Of a stretch of 64,000 nucleotides of DNA, positions 3,241-5,454 are shown in pieces. This DNA comes from an uncultured Erythrobacter sp. (lineage in GTDB: Bacteria > Pseudomonadota > Alphaproteobacteria > Sphingomonadales > Sphingomonadaceae): NCBI GenBank assembly GCA_947502815.1, contig CANNBH010000001.1, forward strand, positions 1,364,001-1,428,000, written 5' to 3'. A program made the position numbers and the translations under genes. The notes under the pieces are model-generated. The model did no database searches. It was not told the origin of the DNA and saw only the letters and a list, made by a program, of their open reading frames with translations. Positions within the stretch are counted from its first letter, which is position 1. The number at the start of each line of letters is the position of its first letter.

Positions 3241-3315
3241 TGGTGGGCGTAGAGAGAGTTGAACTCCCGACCCCTACGATGTCAACATAGTGCTCTACCA
3301 CTGAGCTATACGCCC
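3241..3315 (-). tRNA. tRNA-Val (anticodon GAC)
   Basis: Read on the minus strand it folds as a complete cloverleaf. A 7-bp acceptor stem (GGGCGTA / TACGCCC) is present, with a D-arm containing AGTGGTAGA. The anticodon stem is CTATG/CGTAG around loop TTGACAT, giving anticodon GAC, and a GTTCAAC T-loop follows. The 3' CCA is encoded (TGG at 3241-3243 on the plus strand). Length is 75 nt including CCA. Confidence 0.96.
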
Positions 3316-3443
3316 ACGCGTTCGTCAATTGCGCTTCGTCTGCTGGTGCATCGAAGCGAAGCGGGCAACTAGCGAAGGCTTACATATTGTGCAAGCGATT
3401 CGTGAATTGATCGCGGATTGGTTTGAGATGCCGGTCCGGCGGC

Positions 3444-3842
3444 TTAGATGCTGGCTTGCTGCTGGTCCTCAAACATGCGTTCTACCTCCAACACCAGATC
3501 GCGCAGGTGGAACGGTTTTGAGAGGACTTTCGCATGCGGTTGTTCGCGGCTCGCGCGCAGCGACACGGCGGCAAAACCGGTGATGAACATCACCTTGGTG
3601 CGCGGGCTTACCTCTGCGCAGCGTTGGGCCAATTCAATCCCGTCCATTTCCGGCATAACAATGTCGGACAAGAGCAGGTCAAATTCTTCGTTTTCAAGCA
3701 GCGGCACGGCGTCTGTGCCGCGATCGACGCTGCTGACCTGATAACCCGCTTTGGTAAGGGCACGCTCAAGATAAGAGCGCATCGCTTCTTCATCTTCGGC
3801 AAGGAGGATACGGGGACCGGTTGGATCGGATTGCAATGTCAT
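3444..3842 (-). CDS. cpdR: Single-domain response regulator CpdR
   Basis: This stand-alone receiver domain has 132 residues from the ATG at 3842. The ORF track extends to a TTG at 3932, but the extra 30 residues lie before the family start. Phosphoacceptor Asp is D60 (LLLSDIVMPEMDG), with T88 (FITGFAA) and K109 (VLSKPFHLRD), and an acidic AEDEE near residue 15. The FITGFAAV and AKVLSKPFHLRDLV strings are typical of CpdR. By family, unphosphorylated CpdR primes ClpXP for cell-cycle substrates such as PdeA, and CckA-ChpT controls its phosphorylation. Three TTAA half-sites lie upstream at 3936-3965 but not at canonical CtrA spacing. Confidence 0.88.
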   Translation of the reverse strand: MTLQSDPTGPRILLAEDEEAMRSYLERALTKAGYQVSSVDRGTDAVPLLENEEFDLLLSDIVMPEMDGIELAQRCAEVSPRTKVMFITGFAAVSLRASREQPHAKVLSKPFHLRDLVLEVERMFEDQQQASI

Positions 3843-4260
3843 AAGAGCTTTATAGCGGAGTTCACTTAAGAAATCTTTCCCATTTGGCGGCTGATTTGCG
3901 GTGTGACCTGTTTCGAGACGCAGTGCTTTCAATGCTTAACTCTTTGGCTTTAAATACGCGCTTAACGCACAGCCGGCATCTCCGTATCAATGCGAGGGAT
4001 AGGCCCAATTTGACCAATCGCGGCAAGGCCTTGGTTAGAGAGCCGATAGAGAAGCTTTGACTTGAAACGCCAAAGCGGGCAGCAAACTGGCCATGCGGTT
4101 AACGCCAACAAACACCGATCCTAACGGCAGCGGGCGAAGCGCTCATGAAGAACTGCCAGAAAAATCAACCGCGCCGGATGGTGAGGCGATCAGCCGGTCC
4201 GATGGCGCATTTTCCGGCGATCTCGTCACGACGCGCGGCGGGGCCGTAGGTGGATCGTTG
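3843..4260. other. Divergent intergenic region between cpdR and the amidohydrolase gene
   Basis: This holds the cpdR promoter region and the 5' region of the plus-strand amidohydrolase gene. The amidohydrolase ORF stays open back to an ATG at 4093. The 56 residues this would add are polar, low in complexity and unlike the family, so I treat 4093-4260 as leader. The TTAA cluster at 3936-3965 stands out against the GC-rich background. No RNA gene is seen. Confidence 0.5.
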
Positions 4261-5205
4261 ATGTCGGCCACCTCAAAATCTGCGCCCACACCGGCTTTTG
4301 TCCATGTTGCGCCGCGCTCTATGCCGCTGCCCGTTTTGATTGCTGTGCCGCATGCTGGGCGGGTCTATCCCGGAGAAACATTGGCGCAGATGCGTGATGC
4401 GCAGCTCAGCCAATTGCGCCTGGAAGATCGGTATATTGACCGGGTTGGGGTGGAGACCGCGCGTGCAACGGGAACCGGGCTGTTGGTGGCTCAGGCTCCG
4501 CGCGCAATGCTTGATCTGAACCGCGCCGATGATGATGTGGACTGGGATATGGTCGCGGGTCCGTATCGCCGGACAGAAAAACCGCAGCCGCGTCTGAGTG
4601 GATCAAACGCGCGCGCGCGCAGTGGGCTGGGGCTGGTGCCGCGCCGACTGCCCGGTTTTGGTGAAATTTGGCGCAGTAAATTACCGCGAGAAGAGCTCGA
4701 TCAGAGGATCGATACAATTCACCGGCCCTATCATGAATTTTTGGCCCGCGAGTTGAAACGAATCCGTGATGCGTGGGGTGCGGCCTTGTTGATTGACCTG
4801 CATTCCATGCCGCCATTGCGGCGCTCTCCAAAGAACACGGGCAATGGCGGTGGACATTTATCCCCGCCGCCGCCGCAAATTGTTCTTGGCGACAGGTTTG
4901 GTGCTTCGTGTCATTCGGGGCTGGTCACGCGCGCCTTTCGCTATCTTGAAGGGCGGGGCTGTGCCGCCGCGCACAACCGGCCCTATGCAGGCGGCTATGT
5001 GCTGGATCGCCATGCTTCTCCAGCGCGCAACATTCATGCGATTCAAGTCGAAGTGTGCCGCTCCACCTATCTCGATGATGCCTTGTCTGAGCCGACCGAC
5101 GCGGTGAAACCTTTGGTCACAATGCTGGCAGGGCTGGTGCGCGAATTGGGTGCGGAAACGGCCGGGCTGGGTACAGGTGGGCAGATCGCTCAGGCTGCTG
5201 AATAA
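4261..5205 (+). CDS. N-formylglutamate amidohydrolase family protein
   Basis: The family core starts soon after the chosen ATG with PLPVLIAVPHAGRVYP. LEDRYIDRVG and a PRAMLDLNRADDDVDW segment follow, then IDLHSMPP and PYAGGYVLDRH, all characteristic of the FGase (HutG-like) zinc hydrolases. Members hydrolyse N-formylglutamate or similar N-formyl/N-acyl acids. No histidine-degradation genes lie nearby, so the substrate here is uncertain. The start at 4261 (314 aa) has an AGGTGG 8 bases upstream. The ATG at 4093 (370 aa) has no clear ribosome-binding site but cannot be excluded. It is monocistronic, with no terminator immediately after its stop. Confidence 0.85.
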   Translation: MSATSKSAPTPAFVHVAPRSMPLPVLIAVPHAGRVYPGETLAQMRDAQLSQLRLEDRYIDRVGVETARATGTGLLVAQAPRAMLDLNRADDDVDWDMVAGPYRRTEKPQPRLSGSNARARSGLGLVPRRLPGFGEIWRSKLPREELDQRIDTIHRPYHEFLARELKRIRDAWGAALLIDLHSMPPLRRSPKNTGNGGGHLSPPPPQIVLGDRFGASCHSGLVTRAFRYLEGRGCAAAHNRPYAGGYVLDRHASPARNIHAIQVEVCRSTYLDDALSEPTDAVKPLVTMLAGLVRELGAETAGLGTGGQIAQAAE

Positions 5206-5287
5206 ATTCGGCACGATCAACATCGCGCGCGGCGCGGTCTCTCCGACGCAGCTTTCTCAATCGCAGCAATGCATCGATACGGAGGAG

Positions 5288-5337
5288 GCAAAAAAAGCCA
5301 CCTCGCGTCTGTCAAAGGGGGGCGACAGCGAGGTGGC
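5288..5337 (-). terminator. Strong intrinsic terminator of the candidate sRNA
   Basis: A 10-bp stem GCCACCTCGC/GCGAGGTGGC (5297-5306 with 5328-5337) is extended by TGTC/GACA across a 3-nt bulge. On the minus strand it is followed by TTTTTTT (5296-5290). No annotated minus-strand gene ends here, because sapC already has its own terminator at 5418-5454. That implies an extra minus-strand transcript. Confidence 0.75.
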
Positions 5338-5401
5338 CAGGTTCAGGGAGGATCCGCCCGAAGGCTTTTCCACAAGGCGGCTCATGAGGGAAAAACCGCC
5401 T
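5288..5401 (-). ncRNA. Candidate trans-acting small RNA, about 110 nt
   Basis: On the minus strand a predicted start near 5401 is followed by hairpin 1 (GGCGG...CCGCC), then a perfect GCC-TTCG-GGC tetraloop hairpin. Next is an unpaired GGATCCTCCCTGAACC segment with an anti-Shine-Dalgarno-like TCCTCCC. A long GC-rich hairpin ending in seven Ts closes it. A TTGATC-N17-TATCTA promoter lies just upstream. This architecture is typical of Hfq-type regulatory RNAs that block ribosome-binding sites. The overlapping 62-aa minus-strand ORF (5257-5445) has no coding features and reads through the terminator. I do not recognise an RNA family; this is structural inference. Confidence 0.55.
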
Positions 5402-5438
5402 ATGATGTATAGATAAGAAAAGAGCGGGGCGCGATCAA
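5400..5438 (-). promoter_or_regulatory. Predicted sigma-70 promoter of the candidate sRNA
   Basis: On the minus strand, TTGATC (5438-5433) and TATCTA (5415-5410) are separated by exactly 17 bases and followed 7-10 bases later by the first G of the RNA. The spacer lies inside the sapC terminator hairpin, so the two signals overlap. Confidence 0.45.
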
Positions 5439-5454
5439 GTCGCACCCCGCTCTT
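5418..5454. terminator. Bidirectional terminator downstream of sapC
   Basis: AAAGAGCGGGG at the left pairs with CCCCGCTCTTT at the right, with an inner GCGA/TCGC, giving a long stem flanked by A-rich and T-rich sides. It lies 89 bases beyond the sapC stop and can act in both directions. Confidence 0.75.

Follow-up and report, generated by a model that had tools for sequence, protein, structure and literature searches.

In rhizobia and Caulobacter, the αr8 circuit controls carbon storage and starvation. Its RNAs are represented by MmgR of Sinorhizobium meliloti and SisA-D of Caulobacter crescentus, and the corresponding Rfam family, RF00519, carries the name 'suhB'. The Cuckoo/CcsR RNAs and αr14 (NfeR1) share CCUCC anti-Shine-Dalgarno motifs with the RNA described below; in them, the motif is located in hairpin loops. 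The αR8 RNAs usually adjoin the gene for N-formylglutamate amidohydrolase (FGase), as SisA does in Caulobacter, and their hallmark is the 10-mer UUUCCUCCCU, which is single-stranded and follows a weak hairpin (PMC12559287). SisA, encoded beside FGase, represses mRNAs via this core with Hfq, and compensatory mutations demonstrate the pairing (PMC12559287). In the sphingomonad Sphingopyxis granuli TFA, the 61-nt SuhB binds to the thnR 5′ UTR with Hfq and represses thnR (PMC6563040).

We analyzed a 64,000-nucleotide stretch of DNA (the window) from an uncultured Erythrobacter sp. A small RNA gene of about 114 nt occupies positions 5290–5403 of its minus strand. A covariance model (R1), built from the copies in 22 congeners, matches 5292–5403 with 78.3 bits, and the 3′ end was placed at a U run. 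Transcription would start near 5403, judging from the position of the −10 element. The RNA is very probably the sphingomonad ortholog of αr8 (MmgR/SisA, RF00519), located at the ancestral place convergent with FGase and equipped with its own promoter and terminator, and its core would block Shine-Dalgarno regions with Hfq. The FGase gene (PF05013; 4093–5205, plus strand), which is linked to αr8 across the class, is the convergent neighbor, and sapC (PF07277; 5543–6325, minus strand) is located upstream on the same strand as the RNA. A DNA search of the genus added 22 loci (23 with the window) in which the genes are arranged as FAD-oxidase, sapC, RNA, and FGase. Of 36 further loci, 33 have the RNA flanked by both sapC and FGase; each of the remaining three has one of these two genes (L157 is at a contig end). 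Together with a tRNA gene (3244–3315, minus strand), FGase and αr8 form a block (3244–5403 in the window) that is kept across much of the class (L100–L128 and L204–L213); a tRNA upstream of FGase recurs in many αr8-positive loci of the class. The sphingomonads have a gene for a receiver-domain protein between the tRNA and FGase (3444–3932 in the window).

The initial annotation of this DNA had not recognized a family for the RNA and had proposed an Rfam search. The search gave nothing at the site at the gathering cut-off, but RF00519 was the best sub-threshold match: it scored 25.4 bits (cut-off 41), with E = 0.007 when 901 bases were searched. The match loses its significance in larger searches (E = 0.49 in 62 kb). 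The sphingomonad FGase-locus copies tested also scored at most 36 bits against RF00519. The window RNA has no Rfam match to Cuckoo/CcsR or αr14. The 41-bit cut-off is a database threshold and not a biological trait, and homology was tested by locus, model, and intermediates. FGase loci were compared across the class because the literature places αR8 next to FGase. Among 28 FGase loci belonging to other families, 16 have an RF00519 match above the cut-off (46–75 bits). Like the window RNA, each of these 16 copies lies downstream of FGase and is encoded on the other strand. R1, which contains no such sequences, recovers 15 of the 16 at the same place and on the same strand, with E values from 6e-7 to 0.3. 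It detects nothing in the 12 FGase loci without αr8, nor in a further 12 loci that carry the other suhB-type RNA. Scores in the sister families of the order range from 35 to 67 bits; 9 of 11 loci are above the Rfam cut-off, and FGase lies alongside in 9 of 11. Intermediate sequences such as UGCCCCCUGUGGGCGUUUCCUCCCUGAACUUGAGCCACUC are present in these families, where the full UUUCCUCCCU is followed by the GAAC of the window. Within the window's own family, a locus from a different genus (L101) has FGase alongside and already shows the window-type sequence. The shared locus, the recovery by R1, and the graded intermediates thus identify the window RNA as an αr8 ortholog at the ancestral locus. 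It is a divergent, Rfam-invisible member of a known family and not a new kind of RNA. Sequence drift is the reason why Rfam does not detect the sphingomonad form, and this lineage needs its own Rfam model or a wider seed.

The window RNA shares with αr8 the FGase-convergent locus and the order of hairpin, UCCUCCCU core, and terminator. Eight of the ten bases of the αr8 10-mer are present in the window (GAUCCUCCCU), and two differ. Hairpin 2 is also preceded by a 5′ hairpin in the folds of most class-level FGase-linked αr8 copies; therefore, hairpin 1 is not a sphingomonad invention. The Rfam model of RF00519 (77 positions) begins only with hairpin 2 and does not include the 5′ hairpin. The differences involve the core flank, which is GAACCUUGGCCACC in sphingomonads (GAACCUGGCCACC in the window) and AGACUUGGGCC in αr8, and the stem of hairpin 2, which is GCCC/GGGC in αr8, whereas its sequence is free in sphingomonads. 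The sphingomonad RNA is also longer (about 100–114 nt) than MmgR (77 nt). Unlike αr8 elsewhere, the sphingomonad form has a constant CCCUCAU in the loop of hairpin 1 (53 of 59 sequences). In the alignments, this loop and the GAACC(U)UGGCCACC flank are the sphingomonad-specific traits.

The initial annotation had described a TTGATC-N17-TATCTA promoter, a short 5′ hairpin, a UUCG tetraloop hairpin, an unpaired UCCUCCC, and a 14-bp terminator with seven Us, and all of these elements were found in place on the minus strand. The −35 element (TTGATC, with a conserved CTTGA) is at 5438–5433, and the −10 element (TATCTA) is at 5415–5410 after a 17-nt spacer; both are supported by the ortholog alignment. 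Stem-loop 1 spans 5401–5375, with the CCCUCAU loop at 5390–5384, and all 8 of its pairs covary. Stem-loop 2, with a C(UUCG)G loop, spans 5365–5356; it has 3 to 4 pairs in the window species, and all 6 consensus pairs covary in the family. The anti-Shine-Dalgarno core UCCUCCCUGAACC, which is the αr8 core, follows at 5352–5340 and begins with UCCUCCC (5352–5346). CUCCCUGAAC is kept exactly in 52 of 59 aligned sequences. The core is mostly unpaired in the orthologs, but the minimum free energy fold of the window species pairs its first three bases (UCC) with an upstream GGA. The intrinsic terminator (5338–5290) has a conserved 5′ arm, GGCCACCUCG. Its seven Us are present at 5296–5290, but the stem (5338–5296) consists of 16 pairs with a 3-nt bulge and not of 14 bp. 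In the 59-sequence alignment, 98.7% of the terminator cells are paired and the U tract is present, in agreement with the Rho-independent terminator of αr8. The terminator loop (5317–5322 in the window; L041–L049) is a C run in part of the genus, an extra C-rich loop that is absent from most other genera. The stem was also considered as an FGase terminator read on the plus strand; this was rejected because no U tract follows it on that strand.

The single-sequence fold is more stable than those of dinucleotide shuffles, of which 1 in 200 was equally good (z = −3.3). This score alone is only suggestive, and the comparative data are decisive. Compensatory changes in relatives, the absence of which would have refuted the candidate according to the initial annotation, were found. 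In the 23 syntenic orthologs, 93.4% of the cells pair and both-side changes occur in 19 of 27 pairs, and none of 500 shuffles reaches any of the observed measures. The covariation score is 0.446, compared with 0.06–0.10 for slid-structure controls. When other genera were added (59 sequences), 95.2% of the cells were paired, both-side changes occurred in 20 of 27 pairs, and 283 double-changed cells were observed versus 84 in shuffles; again, no shuffle reached the observed values. All three hairpins covary. Hairpins 1 and 2 have stems whose sequences vary from species to species, yet nearly all of the sequences form them when folded singly. Because the alignment was fitted to the R1 structure, it is biased in that direction; the shuffled controls, the slid controls, and the folds of single sequences speak against an artefact. 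On MAFFT alignments, RNAalifold recovered no more than the terminator and a portion of the upstream hairpin because stems of free sequence were misaligned, and model-fitted alignments were consequently used.

With R1, a copy was detected in 174 of the 201 genomes of the family and in 87 of its 96 genera; this is a lower bound because strict filters were applied. The RNA is single-copy in every genome listed by this search. An exact scan for the core and the terminator arm in 84,980 species genomes gave at least 119 stretches. Among the 80 matches listed, all but two are from sphingomonad-named genomes, and the two are one alphaproteobacterial assembly and one labelled Actinobacteria, which is perhaps mislabelled. 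Based on these comparisons of sequence, the RNA is a real small RNA gene in most sphingomonads.

The position of the RNA directly downstream of sapC, on the same strand and with this adjacency conserved in the family, raises the question of whether it is derived from the sapC 3′ UTR, or is merely the distal terminator of that transcript, without its own promoter. A hairpin (5456–5418, minus strand) intervenes between the two and has a weak U tract in many orthologs, which would fit such an origin. This hairpin was listed as a terminator-like site in a scan for terminators, while the bulged terminator of the small RNA was not, and it is probably the terminator or the 3′ end of sapC. The sequence of its stem varies freely between species; thus, it looks like an RNA hairpin and not a protein-binding site. 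It is weaker elsewhere in the family (z below −2 in 39 of 57). The −35 box of the small RNA lies in the loop of this sequence-variable hairpin, a nested terminator-promoter arrangement, and TTGA is at or next to the apex of the strong hairpin in nearly all of the 23 orthologs of the genus. A strong hairpin between sapC and the RNA speaks against such an origin, as does the conservation of the CTTGA/TATYTA promoter in surroundings that are not conserved. The intergenic sequences of the genus can be aligned across both the promoter and the RNA; in this genus alignment, the TTG of the −35 element and the second and fifth bases (A and T) of the −10 element are invariant. A recognizable promoter is present in 57 of 59 sequences; these positions are the best of a restricted search, and their spacing statistics lean to the consensus, but the genus alignment is free of that bias. 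A strict E. coli-type sigma-70 scan of the window site found 0 promoters (1.3 expected). It misses this one because the conserved form is CTTGAA-N17-TATYTA. Moreover, αr8 stays with FGase across the class, and two genomes (L142 and L156) keep the RNA with FGase but have no detectable sapC. We therefore regard an origin from the sapC transcript as unlikely.

The other neighbor suggests that the RNA could act mainly in cis, by antisense pairing with the FGase transcript at its 3′ end, because the convergent RNA lies about 85 bases past the FGase stop codon and this position is kept across the class. However, conservation is strongest in the anti-Shine-Dalgarno core and in the arm of the terminator, the hairpins covary although antisense pairing does not need them, and the published relative SisA works in trans on many mRNAs (PMC12559287). 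A mainly cis-acting RNA is thus very unlikely. We give slightly less credence still to convergent anatomy, in which an unrelated anti-Shine-Dalgarno RNA resembles αr8. The motif is short, such RNAs are common in alphaproteobacteria, and all of the sphingomonad FGase-locus copies tested are below the Rfam cut-off; nevertheless, the locus and orientation are those of αr8, R1 recovers the class-level αr8, and the graded intermediates largely refute convergence. The least probable reading, which has almost no weight, is a small protein encoded by a 42-codon frame from an AUG in the loop of hairpin 1. The frame is open in the window, as the 3′ part of an ORF at 5257–5445, but the AUG is not conserved and the frame would run through the terminator. 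It shifts between orthologs because the length of hairpin 2 varies; this reading was rejected because the frame is not conserved in the ortholog alignment.

The initial proposal of a small RNA with an anti-Shine-Dalgarno core similar to alphaproteobacterial trans-acting RNAs is supported by conservation, covariation, synteny, and family membership. As an αr8 ortholog, the RNA would be transcribed from its own housekeeping-type promoter (CTTGAT-N17-TATCTA) and would end at its own terminator, with two hairpins preceding the core UCCUCCCUGAACC. By analogy with its characterized relatives, the most likely mechanism is Hfq-assisted pairing of the core with the Shine-Dalgarno regions of several mRNAs, which would block ribosome binding and repress translation. 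The constant CCCUCAU loop may be a second pairing site. The Hfq gene is present in the same genome; it is a single open frame of 208 codons with two Hfq domains (G000:C1:1651347-1651772; L188 and L189). A genome-wide search for core complements (GGTTCAGGGAGGA, at most 2 mismatches) gave 53 sites versus 27 for a reversed control. Among 29 inspected core-complementary sites, there was no convincing ribosome binding site of a recognizable gene, and this search for extended core complementarity thus gave no convincing target set. A more tentative view, which is possible but which we do not favor, is that the sphingomonad RNA is a functionally distinct, Rfam-invisible αr8 regulator that acts beside the SuhB-type RNAs. 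The CCCUCAU loop and the GAACC-extended core would then be its pairing sites, and its transcription would be tied to sapC, because the hairpin that ends sapC has the −35 box in its loop.

An FGase-linked αr8 RNA is now identified in a large and environmentally important family, in which annotation at the Rfam threshold reports only other suhB-type RNAs. The covariance model and the exact coordinates allow us to ask whether the αr8 circuit works in sphingomonads. Matches above the RF00519 cut-off were found in 96 of 121 family genomes, often several in each, and the inspected ones belong to a second type. The genome of the window also has this second, Rfam-positive suhB-type RNA, at G000:C1:347712-347785 (45.8 bits), with the core UCCUCUCCCAAACUU. 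Like the window RNA, SuhB of Sphingopyxis granuli TFA is a suhB-type regulatory RNA of a sphingomonad; it acts at a 5′ UTR with the help of Hfq, as the window RNA would, but it differs in being annotated from the genome and only 61 nt long. For these two reasons, it is probably of the second, Rfam-positive UCCUCUCCCAAAACUU type, which is often multi-copy. The second suhB-type RNA (L001, 1420–1574) is preceded by TTGCA..TGCAAC and TTTCGCACTTGC-like boxes. These boxes are common to its paralogs in many sphingomonad genomes, which suggests a common regulator.
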